Shown here: piece by piece, positions 36,943 to 44,416 of the stretch
Position numbering within the stretch: position 1 is the first letter of the stretch
Layout: each line of letters begins with the position of its first letter
Assembly: GCA_016705685.1 (NCBI GenBank)
Contig: JADJLB010000012.1
Location: forward strand, 62,001 to 126,000
Direction: 5' to 3'
DNA: 64,000 bases
Origin: Propionivibrio sp.
GTDB lineage: Bacteria > Pseudomonadota > Gammaproteobacteria > Burkholderiales > Rhodocyclaceae
Program-made: the position numbers and the translations under genes
Notes under the pieces: generated by a model
Told to the model about the DNA's origin: nothing
Databases searched by the model: none
What the model saw: the letters and a program-made list of their open reading frames with translations, nothing else

Positions 36943-37932
36943 TCAATCGATGTCTTGCGGCATCGTAATGACAACCTTTCCAGTGGATTTGCGGGTCACC
37001 ACCTGATTGAGCGCCTCGACCGCCCTTTCCAGTGGATAAATTGCCGAGATATGCGGTTTTATCGCACCGCTCAGATACCACTGAATCAGTGTCCGTAGAC
37101 TACGGGTCATCACTTTGGGATGCAATTCCGCATAGGCTGGCCAGTTCAGGCCGATCACATCCACATTCTTGACCAGCAGATGGTTGGCGGGAATCTGCGG
37201 CACGGATCCACTGGCAAATCCAATCAACAAGATGCGCCCTTCAAAGGCGATGCTGCGTAGCGACGCGCTGAACAACTCGCCACCCACCGGATCGTAAACT
37301 ACATCCGCACCACGGCCGTTGGTCAGTTCCTTGATTCGATCCCGCACGTTCTCATGGTTCGTATCGATGAGATGATCAGCACCGTGCGCTCGAGCCACTT
37401 CGAGTTTTTCCGGGCTGCTCGCCGTGGCGATGACCGAGGCCTTCAGTTGCTTGCCTATGGCTACGGCGGTCAAGCCGACGCCTCCGGAGGCGCCATGGAC
37501 CACCAAGGTTTCTCCCGCGCGCAATCGCGCCCGGTGCCACAAAGCGATATGCGAAGTGCCATACACCACGGGAAAGGCGGCACCATCTTCCCAGGACATC
37601 GCCTCGGGCATCGGCACACAGCCGATGGCAGCAACAACAAGTTGCTCGGCATAGCCGCCGTACGGAGTCATGGCAATCACGCGTTGCCCGATAACGAACC
37701 GTTTCACGCCGGTGCCCAACTCCAATACGTCACCGGAAACTTCAAAACCGGGACTGAAGGGTGGTTGCGGCTGCCTTTGATATTGGCCGCGCGTAATCAA
37801 CCCATCGGCGAAATTGACTCCGCAGGCACGGACACGGATACGGACTTGGCCGGGACCGGGACGCGGCTCCGGAACCTCATCCAGGCGCAATGCCGCTGGG
37901 CCGGTGAGTTCATGACAGACGATGGCTAGCAT
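36943..37932 (-). CDS. NADPH:quinone reductase-like medium-chain dehydrogenase/reductase
   Basis: 329 residues, zinc-free MDR family. The N-terminal GroES-like domain includes GVNFADGLITRGQYQ and PFSPGFEVSGDV. The Rossmann segment is VVHGASGGVGLTAVAIGKQL (about 140-160), followed by SSPEKLEVARAHGADHLID. The specificity could be quinone, enone or acyl-CoA; its place directly after the crotonyl-CoA carboxylase/reductase, itself an MDR enzyme, suggests acyl-CoA or reductase duty, but this is inference. A terminator-like hairpin separates it from that gene, so it may be transcribed separately. Confidence 0.8.
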   Translation of the reverse strand: MLAIVCHELTGPAALRLDEVPEPRPGPGQVRIRVRACGVNFADGLITRGQYQRQPQPPFSPGFEVSGDVLELGTGVKRFVIGQRVIAMTPYGGYAEQLVVAAIGCVPMPEAMSWEDGAAFPVVYGTSHIALWHRARLRAGETLVVHGASGGVGLTAVAIGKQLKASVIATASSPEKLEVARAHGADHLIDTNHENVRDRIKELTNGRGADVVYDPVGGELFSASLRSIAFEGRILLIGFASGSVPQIPANHLLVKNVDVIGLNWPAYAELHPKVMTRSLRTLIQWYLSGAIKPHISAIYPLERAVEALNQVVTRKSTGKVVITMPQDID

Positions 37933-38066: not shown

Positions 38067-39814
38067 CTAGCCGATGATCTTGCGCACCACATCGGTCATG
38101 GAGATCACGCCGACCGGCTTGTCTTTCTCGGTGACCACCAGGCGGTGCATCCGCCGACCTGTCATCAAGCTGACCGCATCGCTCAAGAGCATATCGGCAT
38201 CGCAGGTCGCACAACCTGGAGTCATGATCTCGCTGGCCTTCATCGACCGCGCCTGATCCGGCGTCCGGCCCTGACGCGCCAGAACCATATCAGTTTGTGA
38301 TACGACACCGGTGGCTTTGCCCTGCTCCATGACCACTACTGCGTGGATTTCCTTGTCCACCATGATCTTGGCCACTGCGCCGATCGTGTCGTCCGGGGTA
38401 CAGGAAATAATGCCATGATGCATCAAATCACGCACCTTGGTACCGTCATCGGCGATGGTCAAGGCCTCGGCCTCCTCAATGCTGGGCAACGGTTCGGACA
38501 TCGGGTACGGATGTGGCGTGGTATGCACATCGCCCTTGGGTAGCGTCGGATGAACAACCGTCACTGCGGGCTTGCCACTGACACCGAGCCCGAACTGGGT
38601 CGCGCCAATGAGCACTGACATGTTGCCATGCGGATGCTTATTGTCAGCCATTAACTGATGCGCAATTGGTAACTCATCATAGGTGAATGCCCGCGACATG
38701 CAAGGGTCAAGCTGTCCGCTCAGCGCCAACTGGTTCATCTGGTTGGACTGCTCGGTATTGGCAAAATGCGAACCCTGCAGGCGCTTCTGGCGCATCCACA
38801 GGTAGCGCAAATCGACAGTCGCATTGTAGCCGGTCGTCCCGGCGCAGACCACCACCATGCCACCCGTTTCGCAAACGAAAATCGAGCTTGGGATGGTGGT
38901 TTCACCCGGGTGCTCGAAGACGACGTTCGGTGCACGCTTCTCACCCAGAACTTCCCAGATTTTCGAACCAAAGGCCCGGACACCCTTAAGCCACTTGGCA
39001 TAACCAGCGTTGTCTTTCCAGTGTGGGAGCATACCCCAGTGATCGAATTCGTTGCGGTTGATGCAACCTTTCGCGCCCAACTTCATACAGTAATCAAACT
39101 TGTCTTCACCCGACACCATGGCCACGGAGGTCGCCCCAACGGCCTTGGCGATCTGAATCGCCATCGAACCCAACCCACCAGCACCACCCCAGATCAAGGC
39201 CACATCACCTTTCTTGATAGAGCTGGAACCCCAGCCATGCAGCATCCGCCAAGCGGTCGCCGCAACCAGCGTATAAGCGGCGGATTCTTCCCAGTTCATA
39301 TGCTTCGGTCTGGGCATGCACTGCTGGGCCTGCACCGGGTAAACTGGGCAAAGCTGCCGTAGTTGGTCTCGTAACCCCAAATCTTGAACGAGGGGGAGTA
39401 CATCGGATCCCCGCCCTTCTTGACCCACGAGCAATTCCGGTCAAAGGTTCCACAATGCATCACGACTTCATCGCCAACCTTGACGTTAGTCACATCCTTG
39501 CCAACCTTGTACACGATGCCGGACGCATCGCTGCCGCCGATATGAAAGTCTTCGGGTTCGCCGTTCTTGTTACGTGCGCCGATGACGTTGACGGGGATGC
39601 CCATCGCCGCCCAGACGTTGTTGTAGTTGATCCCTGCCGCCATCACGTAAACCAGCACTTCGTCGTCGGCGATCGACGGCGTATTCACTACTTCCTTCTG
39701 AAACGCTTCCGTCGGCTTGCCAAAACGGTCCGCGCGAACCAGCCAGGCGTGCATTTTTTCCGGAACTTCGCCCAGGGGAGGTTGTTCACCTATTTCATAC
39801 AGTTGCTTGCTCAT
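38067..39814 (-). CDS. ccr: crotonyl-CoA carboxylase/reductase with C-terminal CBS pair (one frameshift as written)
   Basis: Reductively carboxylates crotonyl-CoA to ethylmalonyl-CoA with NADPH and CO2, the key step of the ethylmalonyl-CoA pathway. Starts at the ATG at 39814 (GGAG eight bases upstream). Near 39328-39331 one G is missing from a GG run: FAQFTR must continue [17 protein letters not shown]. Repaired, the protein has about 582 residues. Residues 1-430 or so are a normal CCR ([53 protein letters not shown], ending [11 protein letters not shown]). A linker and about 125 more residues form two CBS repeats ([46 protein letters not shown]). I know of no characterised CCR with such a tail. 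It suggests control by adenine nucleotides. Confidence 0.88.
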
Positions 39815-39846: not shown

Positions 39847-40812
39847 TTAATCGGACAACTTGAATCTGGACAAAATATGCTGTCGCATAAGATCGTATTC
39901 TTGAAACTGTCCGGAACGATTTCCGCTCAGGCGTTCGCCGATACCGGTCAAGCCGCCAACCAACTCCAAGCCGAATGTTCCGAATTCTTCCTTCAACAAG
40001 CGTATTACCCAGGCGCTGTGATGGCGCACGCGCAACTTGCCAAGCAATGCGGAACTGGCCAGAAAGCCGCGATGCCTGTCGATATGTTCCTGTAATTCCT
40101 TGATCCCTGTATTCATCGTCGCGCTGACCAGGCACACCGGGTAATCCCATTCTTCCCGACGATCCTGTCGCGGAGCGCTACGGCCAATTTCGGCAGCTGT
40201 CTTGCGTGCTGCAGCGCCAAGATCGGACTTATTAACCGCAAAAATATCAGGGATTTCGATAATACCAGACTTCAGATACTGAATTGCATCGCCCGAGGCC
40301 GGTTGCGCCACGTAACAAACCGTGTCGGCAATTTCGGCAATCTCGATTTCAGTTTGCCCGACTCCGACCGTCTCGATGACGACGATATCGAAGCAGGCGA
40401 GCATCAGCCAGCTCATCGGCCAAACCTCGGTCGCCACACCGCCCATCTGATTGCGATTCGCCAGCGAGCGAATGAACAGGCCTTCATCATGCGAGGTGTT
40501 CTTGATGCGAATACGATCGCCGAGCAGGGCACCACCGCCGAGTTCGGGGCGGCTCGACGGATCCACGGCCAGCACGCCAACGGTCCTCCCTGACAGGCGC
40601 CAGGCACGAATCATCGCGCTGACCAGCGAAGACTTCCCAGCGCCAGGCGGGCCCGTCACGCCGATAAGGTGGCCTTCATTCAACCAGCGATCGCCGGACA
40701 GGGACGCCAGCAACCTTGCCGAGCAAGTTCGCGCCTCGCCCCGCTTGTTATCCAGAAGATTCAGGCCACTGGCAACCGCCGCCCGCTCACCGCGCCGTAT
40801 CCGCGAAGCCAA
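39847..40812 (-). CDS. meaB: MeaB-type P-loop GTPase, mutase chaperone
   Basis: Protects and reloads B12-dependent acyl-CoA mutases. About 321 residues: Walker [12 protein letters not shown] (about 51-61), [14 protein letters not shown], switch region [18 protein letters not shown] (about 143-160) and NKSD (about 197). The frame opens at a TTG (40812), but upstream codons (reading SEPSDPEQL) look like real N-terminus. An ATG at 40844 would join them if one T were added to a TT run nearby, so the true start is probably 40844 with another single-base error. It lies between ecm and ccr, in keeping with service to the ethylmalonyl-CoA mutase. Confidence 0.87.
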
Positions 40813-40851
40813 CTGTTCGGGATCGGAAGGTTCGCTAATATCATTTCCCCA

Positions 40852-42870
40852 TCACTGCAGCAATCCGAGACGTTTGAGCCCGTTGCCTTCACGGATCACA
40901 TCCACCATATCCGCCATGATGGTATTCAAATTGAAATCCTTGGGTGTGTAGATTGCACGTACGCCAAGCGCCATCAGCTTTTCGGCATCCTCTTGCGGGA
41001 TGATCCCACCGGCAATCACCGGCACGCCCGCCAGATCGCGCGCGCGAAGTTCCTGCAGAACGGCTTCCACCAGTTCCATGTGACTCCCCGAAAGAATCGA
41101 CAGCCCCACCATATGCACCCCTTCTTCCTGGGCCGCCTGGGCAATCTGCTGAGGGGTCAGCCGGATTCCGTCGTAGACGACCTCGAAACCGACATCCCTG
41201 GCCTTGACGGCAACCTGTTCCGCACCGTTGGAGTGTCCGTCCAGACCTGGCTTGCCGACCAAAAGTTTCAAGGGGCGACCCAATTCATTGCCGGTGTTGG
41301 CGACCCGCGCCCGGAGCTCGGCTACCTGATCCTTCTTGCCGAGCACTTCGCGGCTGTCAATGGCAATGTCGATACCCGTCGGTGGCCTGAACTCGCCGAA
41401 AACCGCGCGCAAGGAATCTCCCCATTCGCCGGTCGTGACTCCGGCCAACGCACAGCGAATCGAACTGGGCATGATGTTGGCGTCGCTCTTGGCGGCATCA
41501 GTGAGTCCTTGCAAAGCAGCCCGCGCTTCGGCATCGTTACGGTTCTTGCGATGCGCCTGCAGACGTTCGATTTGCTCCCCGCTCGGCCGCCGGATTGGTT
41601 TTCATGATGCTGCCGTCGCTGTCCAGGGTCAGCGGCGATTCCGCTGTTTCCTGGAAGCAGTTAACGCCGATGATTTTCAGGTCGCCCGATTCAATGGCGC
41701 GCAGACGGTTCATGTGGCTACCGACCAGTTCGCGCTTGATGTAGCCGGACTCGATCGCCGCAACAATCCCGCCCTGGGCTTCGACATTCTCGATTTCCGC
41801 CCTGGCCCCTTCGACCAGTTCCTTGACCTTGGCGGCAATCACCGGCGACCCATCCAGAATGTCCGCGTACTCGAGCAAATCGGTTTCGAAAGCCATCACC
41901 TGCTGTATACGCAGGGCCCACTGCTGATCCCAGGGCGCGGCAAACCCATGGCCTCGTTCCAGGCCGGGAGTTGTATGGCGCGGGCTCTGGCGTTTTTCGA
42001 GAGCACCACTGCCAGCATTTCCAGGACGATGCGCTGCACGTTGTTTTCGGGTTGTGGCTCGGTCAAGCCCAGCGAATTCACCTGGACGCCATAACGGAAC
42101 CGCCGCAGCTTGGGATCTTCGACCTTGTAACGCGTCAGGGTCAGTTCGTCCCACATTTCGCCAAATGCGCGAAGCTTGCAGCACTCCTCAACGAAGCGTA
42201 TGCCGGCATTGACAAAAAATGAGATGCGTTCGACAACTTGCGGAAAATCGCTCGGCGCGATCTCGCCGGTCGCCTTGACCCGGTCGAGAACGGCCATCGA
42301 GGCGCAGAGGGCGTAAGCCAGCTCCTGAACCGGCGTTGCACCCGCTTCCTGCAAATGGTAGCTACATATATTGGTCGGATTCCATTTGGGAACATGCTTG
42401 ACGGTATAGTTGATCGTATCGGCAATCAAACGCATCGACGGTCCCGGCGGATAGATATACGTCCCGCGCGAGAGATACTCCTTGATGATGTCGTTCTGGG
42501 TTGTGCCGCTCAGTTCCTTCGGATCGATGCCCCGCCGTTGCGCCAGGCCAATGTACATCGACAACAACCATGGCGCCGTGGCATTGATGGTCATGGCCGT
42601 GTTCATTTTGTCGAGGGGAATCTGATCGAACAATTGATCCATGTCCTCGATATTCGATATGGGCACGCCAACCTTGCCGACCTCGCCTCTGGACAAGGGA
42701 TTGTCGGCATCGTAGCCAGTCTGCGTTGGCAAATCGAAGGCTACCGAGAGCCCCGTCTGGCCTTTGGCCAGATTGGTTCGATAAAGCGTATTGGACGCCT
42801 TGGCGGAGCTATGACCACTATAGGTCCGCATCAACCAGGGTCGATCGACTTTCTTCTGAGTTGAAACCAT
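40852..42870 (-). CDS. ecm: ethylmalonyl-CoA mutase, B12-dependent (two frameshifts as written)
   Basis: Converts ethylmalonyl-CoA to methylsuccinyl-CoA with adenosylcobalamin. The barrel N-terminus is RPWLMRTYSGHSSAKASN, with PTQTGYDADNPLSRGEVGKV and CSYHLQEAGATPVQELAYAL; the B12 domain near the C-terminus has GKPGLDGHSNGAEQVA, where the Asp-x-His ligand lies, and GLSILSGSHMELV. One C is missing near 41933-41935 (LPRP must run on as WDQQW), and one extra G lies in the run at 41577-41580. Corrected length is 672 residues, right for Ecm and shorter than methylmalonyl-CoA mutase large chains. Sequence character favours Ecm over Mcm, and so does the context beside ccr. Start ATG 42870 with AGGGG upstream. 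Confidence 0.88.
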
Positions 42871-42913: not shown

Positions 42914-44416
42914 CTAAACCGCATCAATCAGCGAACGCGCGATAACCTTCAGCGCCAACGTTTCTTCCGCGCCCTCGAAGATCGACAGCACGCGGGCATC
43001 CAGGAAATAACGGCTGACCGGCGTCTCCTCGGCATAGCCCATGCCCCCATGAATCTGCATCGCTTCGCGGGTGAGCCACTCGGCGGTCCGGCAGGTGAAC
43101 AGCTTCACCATGCTGGCCTCCATTTGCCCCTTGCCCTGATCCATCAAGCGACCCACGGCGTAGGTAAATTGGCGCGATACGGTCAGCAAAGTCGCCATGC
43201 GCGCCAGCTTGACGCGGGTCCGTTGGAAATCGCCGATCAGTTTGCCAAACGCCTTACGCTCCTGGGAATAGGAAACGGCTTTTTCAAAAGCGGCCTGCAT
43301 CACGCCGATGGCGCGTGCGGCCGTCTGGATCCGACCGCCGGCAAACCCGGCCATGGTGAAGTAGAAACCTTTTCCTTCGCCCTCCGGCCCGCCAACCAGA
43401 TTGTCATCCGGCACAAAGACATGGTCGAAAAAGACCTCGTAGGAATGCATCCCGCGATAACCGATCGTCGCAATCGCACGCCCCGTCAGCACACCGCCTA
43501 GCGGTTGACGATATTCAAAGTCATGCCCGTCGTAAGAATCCTTCTCGACCAAAAACATGCTCAGTCCCTTGTGGCCGAGCGAGCTGTCCGGATTGGAGCG
43601 GGCCAGGACCAGGAGTAGCCCGGCCTTCCCGGCCATGGTGCACCAGGTCTTGGCGCCGTCGAGTATCCACCCGCCCTCGCATTTCGTTGCTTTGAGTCGC
43701 ATGGCGGCGACATCGGACCCGGTATCGGGCTCGGTTACGGCAATGGCGCACAAGGGCTGACCCATCGCGATTTGAGGCAACCATTTTTGTCTTTGTGCTT
43801 CGGTTCCCCTTTGAGCAGTGAGCGGCTGAGGATCTCCGGACGCGTGATCAGGCTGCCCGCTCCGCCCAGCGAGCCATGCGAAAGCTCCTCCGTCACCACG
43901 ATCATCCCCATGTTGTCTTCATGATCGTCACTCTGGATACCACCGTATCGCTCGGGGATCGACAGGCCAAAACAGCCCATTTCGGTCAGCGGATCCAGGA
44001 TCTCCGGCGGAATGATCCGGTCTTCCCGATGTATTTCTTCAGCCAGCGGCATCACCACGTTCGTCGCCAGTTTGCGGAAGGAGTCCTGCATCATCGTGGC
44101 ATCGTCGCCAAGCAGGTAGGCGCCACTGCCGCCATCCAGCGTTGAGACCAGTTTGCCCAGCGCATCCAGATTGCCGGCGTCCAGTTGCTCCTGGCAGAAC
44201 CGGGCAATCGCGGGGGAGGCCAACGTTGCGACGTCCGCTTCGCTCAGGCCGTAATTCTGCGGACGCACTCGCAAACGGTTTTGAATGTTCTGCAAGGCCT
44301 CTGCACAAAAACCAGAGTCATCCGTTGTTCCAGGCAAACACCCTCGCCCGCTGTGCTGGCGGCCATCTTTTCGGCGTATTCCAGGGCAAAGCGCGCTGCG
44401 GTGGATTCGGCGGCAC
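42914..44416 (-). CDS. mcd: methylsuccinyl-CoA dehydrogenase-like acyl-CoA dehydrogenase (three frameshifts as written)
   Basis: Expected to oxidise (2S)-methylsuccinyl-CoA to mesaconyl-CoA, feeding ETF. The protein is longer than common acyl-CoA dehydrogenases through an N-terminal region of about 130 residues, as in Mcd. Core motifs are VTEPDTGSDVAAM (about 245), TWCTMAGKAG, QIHGGMGYAEETPVSRYFLD and LSIFEGAEETLAL. Three runs each lack one base: CC after the probable GTG start (44416, AGGGAG upstream), A/T5 at 44307-44311 (VF then CAEALQNIQN), and A/T5 at 43784-43788 (HKDK then WLPQIAMGQPL). Corrected length is 501. The substrate is inferred from neighbours; a generic acyl-CoA dehydrogenase is the alternative. 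It begins about 31 bp after the lyase gene. Confidence 0.8.

Follow-up and report, generated by a model that had tools for sequence, protein, structure and literature searches.

In a 64,000-nucleotide stretch of DNA from Propionivibrio sp. (contig JADJLB010000012.1, positions 62,001 to 126,000; hereafter, the window), we have identified a gene, ccr-cbs, in which a crotonyl-CoA carboxylase/reductase (CCR) continues in frame into a C-terminal pair of CBS repeats, also called a Bateman pair. No other CCR was found in the genome of the window, and it is fairly probable, in our estimate, that the CBS pair of this sole CCR is a binding site for adenine nucleotides and adjusts the activity of the catalytic part. 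CCR–CBS constitutes, furthermore, a CCR subfamily spanning several phyla. CCR, by which CO2 is added to a small fatty-acid thioester, catalyzes a key step that consumes NADPH and CO2, and the fused enzyme suggests a putative built-in switch on the carbon route.

Domain architecture of the CCR–CBS protein

The ccr-cbs gene occupies 38067..39814 on the minus strand, exactly where an earlier note on this DNA had placed it, and its stop codon ends at 38067. When the intact protein of a related locus (L038) was compared with the window by tblastn, its residues 1–168 matched 39814–39311 and its residues 161–582 matched 39335–38070 in two frames; the gene contains one frameshift in the assembly, namely in the interval 39311..39335 where the two frames overlap, and four relatives (L037, L038, L008, and L009) have one open frame across this interval. 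The N-terminal part of CCR (39311..39814, minus strand) contains the GroES-like domain (PF08240) and corresponds to positions 4–155 of the TIGR01751 profile, and the C-terminal part (38583..39335, minus strand) contains the NADPH-binding domain (PF00107) and the end of the catalytic domain, corresponding to positions 147–396 of the same profile with 344.4 bits. Because the frameshift splits the gene, these pieces (191 and 344–345 bits) are singly below the TIGR01751 cut-off of 378.55 bits; the intact fused proteins of two genomes in the same genus, G022 and G013, score 555.5 and 554.9 bits, respectively.

CCR proper ends near residue 411 (L037 numbering, also used below for the tail) instead of near residue 430 as had been noted, and is followed by a linker of about 43 residues (38454..38582, minus strand), which is partly conserved with the consensus LPxxDVHxTPHPYP and modeled with low confidence; the linker and the CBS pair run to about residue 583. 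CBS repeat 1 (38277..38435, minus strand; PF00571, 48.5 bits) contains the motifs IHA (His491) and GVVSQTD (Ser506, Thr508, and Asp509), and CBS repeat 2 (38073..38237, minus strand; PF00571, 51.2 bits) contains MHR (His557 and Arg558) and GVISMTD (Ser572, Thr574, and Asp575). Both repeats are individually above the Pfam cut-off of 24, and the frame of the C-terminal part (38067–39434) matches PF00107 together with two PF00571 repeats (E = 6.6e-25, 87.6 bits). The chain terminates right after repeat 2. The window frame carries every CBS motif, and 123 of the 129 tail residues are identical to those of L037. The CBS fold of the tail was confirmed with the CBS part modeled alone, since the list from a fold search with the whole protein was filled by the CCR part. 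In the full-length model, residues 303–349 and 420–454 have low confidence, with the predicted local distance difference test score (pLDDT) below 50 for residues 420–454, and we thus leave the location of the tail on the CCR part unclaimed. The flexibility of the linker is more in keeping with a regulator on a tether than with a built-in structural element.

As for the catalytic part, the CO2-site residues of K. setae CCR, which we take to be Asn81, Phe170, Glu171, and His365 (a literature search for His365 gave nothing), correspond to N65, Y148, E149, and H350 in an alignment to 6na3 with chain numbering from -1. Among 52 aligned relatives described below, the presumed carboxylation residues N65, E149, and H350 are invariant, and Y148 is conserved in at least 90%; Tyr148 replaces Phe at the presumed CO2 site, and Tyr is found likewise in 4gi2. 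Reductive carboxylation is the predicted activity of this protein.

Distribution and descent of the fused CCR

A scan with the C-terminal part matched 473 relatives; the best 80 make up the 79 loci considered here, some genomes contributing two. The scan is biased in that the closest matches were kept and the tail supplies two of its six search patterns. The CCR end and the CBS pair share one open frame in 78 of these 79 loci, and L079 has a frame change inside CBS repeat 2. The C-terminal part has its best named matches in two records of Propionivibrio (91 and 89% identity) and one of Accumulibacter (90%). By title, 42 of the 79 loci belong to Propionivibrio (2), Accumulibacter (21), Competibacter/Contendobacter/Competibacteraceae (17), and Defluviicoccus (2), names associated with sludge bacteria that accumulate polyphosphate or glycogen. 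Also, L079 and L080, from bins named Synechococcaceae and Rhizobiales, carry CCR–CBS resembling the Competibacteraceae/Accumulibacter genes and are possibly misplaced contigs.

From the 79 biased loci, 52 rows were chosen as distinct, complete, and having a single CBS pair, and in all of the 52, matches to CBS, ADH_N, and ADH_zinc_N lie within one protein. The median ratio of nonsynonymous to synonymous substitution rates (dN/dS; Nei–Gojobori, 66 pairs from the first 12 of the 52 rows) is 0.063 in CCR, compared with 0.178 in the linker and 0.136 in the CBS pair. Given the co-occurrence of all three families in every row and the low median dN/dS of the tail, the CCR–CBS fusion is not due to chance. 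In close relatives, the CBS pair is fused to CCR, contrary to the separate gene that the earlier note had named as a possible refutation.

In a wider survey, six drawn groups (1446 genomes) were searched with TIGR01751 at E <= 1e-90, and CCR was matched in 265 genomes: 4 of 274 in the class of the window's own genome, 121 of 385 in the class of G341, 12 of 251 in the phylum of G334, 96 of 296 in that of G332, 26 of 188 in that of G336, and 6 of 52 in that of G339. Fused CCR was found in 14 of the 265 genomes (3, 4, 1, 1, 3, and 2 in the same order). Open frames shorter than 540 residues were counted as tail-less, mostly without reading the sequence, and longer ones were read; a full fused frame has about 570 residues or more, and cuts at contig ends could hide a few fused CCRs. 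Eight of the 14 were already known from the scan of relatives, G000 is the window's own genome, and the other five were unseeded (G126, G257, G497, G676, and G1448), some of which may repeat genomes of that scan. The tail is, therefore, a minority form overall but is carried by three of the four CCR genomes in its own class. Among 27 further genomes of the same genus, several of which are incomplete, CCR over the cut-off was found only in G013 and G022, both fused; the gene is thus patchy within the genus. Of 18 genomes that were reached from fused loci, 15 have the fused protein as their sole CCR (E <= 1e-60), and G333, G341, and G345 have further CCRs beside the fused one.

Some variants were noticed in the course of this survey. 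Two Caldilineales proteins, L110 (4400–6782) and L114 (3008–6785), carry two CBS pairs in each chain; a contig end cuts the second pair of L114. Two adjacent ccr-cbs genes are present at L102 (2026–6368) and L245, in two genomes that were either drawn from Alphaproteobacteria or so titled. G333, a Kineosporiaceae bin, has three CCRs (L138, L265, and L082) close to the Competibacter/Accumulibacter-like ones, which represent either horizontal transfer or a mixed bin; L265 runs off its contig, and L138 stops after the linker with no CBS.

The earlier note had suggested mapping C-terminal CBS domains on a tree of CCR homologues, and this mapping revealed a single clade. From 245 CCR frames, three were removed for having fewer than 330 aligned residues, and rows sharing an identical core were likewise removed, to leave 219 (82 tailed), which were thinned to 122 rows (38 tailed) for a quick, midpoint-rooted tree of the CCR part alone. 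On this tree, the tail label changes twice, compared with a mean of 32.6 after shuffling, and none of 500 shuffles was as low. All 38 fused rows fall within one 40-row group (SH-aLRT 96), the base of which the tree leaves unresolved and the only tail-less members of which are L116 and L138. L138 retains the linker, but the six CBS motifs are absent from every frame of its locus and the tail profile gave no match there; the frame of L116 ends five residues past the CCR match. These results fit one gain of the tail followed by one or two losses, although L116 could be primitively tail-less instead of a secondary loss. In the tree of the tail itself, the deep forks are weak and several small groups are the same as in the CCR tree.

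No separate CBS gene was matched by the tail profile (frames of at least 60 residues, E 0.01) beside CCR in 138 tail-less loci, where the sequence left past the CCR frame has a median of 1452 bases and is shorter than 500 in 8 of the 138, so that a more distant CBS gene is possible. In the window's own genome, no stand-alone donor of the tail can be named: the tail itself scores 214 bits, and the next best CBS protein, at 74 bits, is too distant. The CBS pair most like the tail in that genome (about 74 bits) is in a four-CBS protein ending in a GGEEF-type motif (G000:C2:500353-501084; L282, L292, L297, and L301).

Candidate ligands and alternative roles of the tail

In AcuB, a Bateman plus ACT protein that senses energy charge and acts on acetyl-CoA synthesis, Asp52 and Asp122 hold the ribose, His34 bridges the alpha-phosphates, and Arg33, Thr119, Lys120, and Thr121 hold the beta-phosphate, according to the accessible part of its description (PMC13121692). 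The spacing of 18 residues between His491 and Asp509 in the tail is equal to that between His34 and Asp52, and GVISMTD closes with Thr574–Asp575, as AcuB does with Thr121–Asp122. When residues are mapped by such spacing and motifs, the CBS pair appears to keep most of the AcuB-type ribose/phosphate contact residues. Indeed, Asp509 and Asp575, one of which closes each repeat at the ribose position, are kept in all 52 rows, and the invariant residues of the tail are M465, G503, T508, D509, Q515, M531, A547, G569, S572, and D575. Also, HRLVV of repeat 2 resembles the HRLVVVD motif of AMPK gamma. Judging from these motifs, adenylates are the most likely candidate ligands of the CBS pair.

Several observations nonetheless weigh against an adenylate-sensing tail. 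The phosphate-binding Arg33 of AcuB is replaced by Ile490 at the matching place, and a conserved Arg is instead found in repeat 2 (Arg558). Structurally, the tail matches AcuB, ligand-free CBS pairs, and SAM (S-adenosylmethionine)-bound CBS pairs equally well, and the matches include CBS pairs in complex with SAM and cyclic di-AMP; CBS pairs are known, furthermore, to bind SAM, NAD(H), cyclic dinucleotides, or nothing. The dN/dS of the CBS pair is roughly double the value for the CCR part, and no tail was found in 251 of the 265 CCR-bearing genomes sampled, which, together with its absence from L116 and L138, indicates that the tail is dispensable for catalysis.

It is possible but unlikely that the CBS pair is a regulator reading another adenosyl ligand such as SAM, NAD(H)/NADPH, a CoA-type compound, diadenosine tetraphosphate (Ap4A), or another alarmone; the structural ties above leave room for these, but the conserved His491, His557, Arg558, and Thr508/Thr574 would favor a phosphate ligand over SAM. 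We are more doubtful that the tail is mainly structural, in which case CBS discs would hold CCR subunits or tetramers together in larger assemblies and no ligand would exert control. CBS pairs commonly dimerize, the linker is long and flexible, and two Caldilineales proteins have two pairs per chain, all in line with such a role, which would, however, not need the unchanged ribose/phosphate contacts seen as Asp509 and Asp575 in every one of the 52 rows. A redox or metal switch via Cys472, Cys535, and Cys538 seems improbable: these are conserved in 48, 46, and 43 of the 52 rows, respectively, and Cys472 and Cys538 occupy matching places of the two repeats, but Cys is also seen by eye at the matching position in a few further CBS domains encoded in the window's genome and is maybe ordinary, and the Caldilineales rows have no counterpart of Cys535. 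There is, finally, practically no chance that the fusion is an assembly artefact or hides a missed stop between the CCR and CBS parts, because, in spite of the five frame breaks in about 6.3 kb described below, the break in ccr-cbs lies inside CCR and outside the junction, and CCR and CBS are open in one frame in 78 of the 79 public loci and in G013 and G022 of the same genus.

Genomic and metabolic context

The gene order in the window is mcd, ecm, meaB, ccr-cbs, and a quinone oxidoreductase-like gene. Directly upstream of ccr-cbs is a meaB-like gene (39850..40824, minus strand) for a GTPase serving as a mutase chaperone, which scores 224 bits on TIGR00750 (cut-off 240.75) and is 87% identical to meaB of L038. 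It is preceded by ecm (40855..42870, minus strand), named ethylmalonyl-CoA mutase by context, which has the N and C domains of acyl-CoA mutase and matches the 672-residue L038 protein in three tblastn pieces, and by an mcd-like acyl-CoA dehydrogenase gene (42917..44414, minus strand), named methylsuccinyl-CoA dehydrogenase by context and matched by acyl-CoA dehydrogenase models, which aligns in three tblastn pieces with an L038 frame of 505 residues reaching the locus edge. Downstream of ccr-cbs (36943..37932, minus strand) lies the quinone oxidoreductase-like gene of the medium-chain dehydrogenase/reductase type (TIGR02824, 254.7 bits, under the cut-off of 296.8), which is also downstream of ccr-cbs, with 72–83% identity, in 39 of the 79 loci. 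Among these loci, matches at E <= 1e-20, which need not be orthologues and are limited in number by contig ends, were found for the N part of ecm in 54, the C part of ecm in 53, meaB in 53, the C part of mcd in 40, and the oxidoreductase in 39. The ethylmalonyl-CoA pathway cluster is thus recurrent, with its mutase and dehydrogenase named by context.

Both ecm and mcd have two frame changes each in the window, which, with the break in ccr-cbs, makes five breaks in about 6.3 kb of a genome of 3.46 Mb in 17 contigs. In L038, ecm is in one frame, and so is mcd up to the locus edge. Such a density of breaks indicates sequence errors rather than decay, and care is needed with gene calls in this assembly.

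Isocitrate lyase is present in 10 of 25 fused-CCR genomes, including the window's own (G000:C10:635425-636696), and PhaC in 16 of the 25, again including the window's own. As judged from isocitrate lyase, the glyoxylate cycle and the ethylmalonyl-CoA pathway may coexist in the window's genome. In five Defluviicoccus genomes, the ethylmalonyl-CoA pathway was judged complete and the glyoxylate cycle was scored absent, according to the accessible part of that study (PMC9041414). The ethylmalonyl-CoA pathway has also been discussed as a possible anaerobic reductant sink in phosphorus-removing sludge, and the accessible part of this redox-sink discussion names no enzyme-level control of the pathway (PMC12604563).

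Possible regulation of the fused CCR

If the tail is an adenylate sensor, AMP, ADP, and ATP would compete for the sites of each CBS pair, and the pairs of neighboring subunits might assemble into a disc, as CBS pairs often do, so that the bound ligand would alter the motion or coupling of the CCR subunits. We lean slightly, by a little over an even chance, toward AMP/ADP raising and ATP restraining the activity, because transcripts of the ethylmalonyl-CoA pathway in Accumulibacter are, in the accessible part of the sludge study, higher under low phosphate (PMC12604563); under phosphate limitation, polyphosphate could supply less ATP and a reductant sink would be needed. On the other hand, the low-phosphate rise reported there for Propionivibrio, the closest named kin of the window, is in the methylmalonyl-CoA and not the ethylmalonyl-CoA pathway. 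The sign of regulation is, indeed, not to be guessed from the fold, since single-residue variants of a comparison system reverse it.

The earlier note had proposed that energy charge could gate carbon entry into the ethylmalonyl-CoA route. The genuine fusion and the mostly kept AcuB-type contact residues support this proposal in part, and the tail, far from being an oddity of one genome, spans several phyla. Since isocitrate lyase makes the pathway only one of two routes for acetyl-CoA, a redox valve or a switch between routes is no less likely than simple control of entry. More tentatively, and with somewhat less than even confidence, we propose that one ancient fusion gave rise to widespread CO2-fixing enoyl-CoA reductases gated by energy charge, with a doubled sensor in Caldilineales and, in bacteria of phosphorus-removing sludge, a valve set by AMP, ADP, and ATP, which would partition crotonyl-CoA, NADPH, and CO2 among storage of polymer, the glyoxylate cycle, and propionyl-CoA.

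As the earlier note had surmised, no CCR with a CBS tail was found described in the literature searched, which left most subscription papers outside; in the accessible parts of papers on CCR or the ethylmalonyl-CoA pathway, mentions of CBS concern other proteins, and no allosteric control of CCR is described. Searches for Accumulibacter with CBS domain gave no match, and those for CBS–oxidoreductase fusions in general gave nothing related. CCR and the CBS sensor are each well known, and their fusion is the new part, although an entry for this architecture, without comment, may exist in domain databases. CCR fixes CO2 very efficiently and is favored as a part in synthetic carbon fixation; a natural class of CCR with a built-in sensor would, if true, provide a ready switch for it. 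Also, the choice between the ethylmalonyl-CoA pathway and the glyoxylate cycle in bacteria holding both would become testable; in the accessible part of a Paracoccus study, how the two routes are regulated, be it transcriptionally, posttranslationally, or allosterically, was named as future work (PMC6747724).

Comparison with known systems

The CCR of the ethylmalonyl-CoA pathway (TIGR01751; PDB 4gi2) shares with ccr-cbs the full CCR homology, the ecm/meaB/mcd cluster, and the presumed carboxylation residues. In the tail-less loci that were read, however, the frame stops 3–62 residues past the CCR match, whereas ccr-cbs adds the linker and the CBS pair; the closest solved CCR-type proteins, AntE (4y0k) and 9kva, are likewise chains of 410–426 residues without a CBS pair. 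AcuB has in common with the tail the CBS pair fold, the ribose Asp, the bridging His, and the phosphate-site Thr, but is a separate protein with a C-terminal ACT domain in the AcsA/AcuA/AcuC system, while the tail of CCR is part of the enzyme, has no ACT domain, and does not keep Arg33. IMP dehydrogenase and AMPK gamma also have adenylate-reading CBS domains but are different from CCR–CBS in protein and arrangement. CBS-pyrophosphatase is similar in that it is an oligomeric enzyme of metabolism whose chain includes a CBS pair, although its catalytic domain is unrelated to CCR and its CBS pair is not C-terminal. This tetramer is inhibited by AMP and ADP and activated by ATP and diadenosine polyphosphates, according to the accessible part of its description (PMC11172384); regulation by adenylates is likewise what is predicted for the fused CCR.
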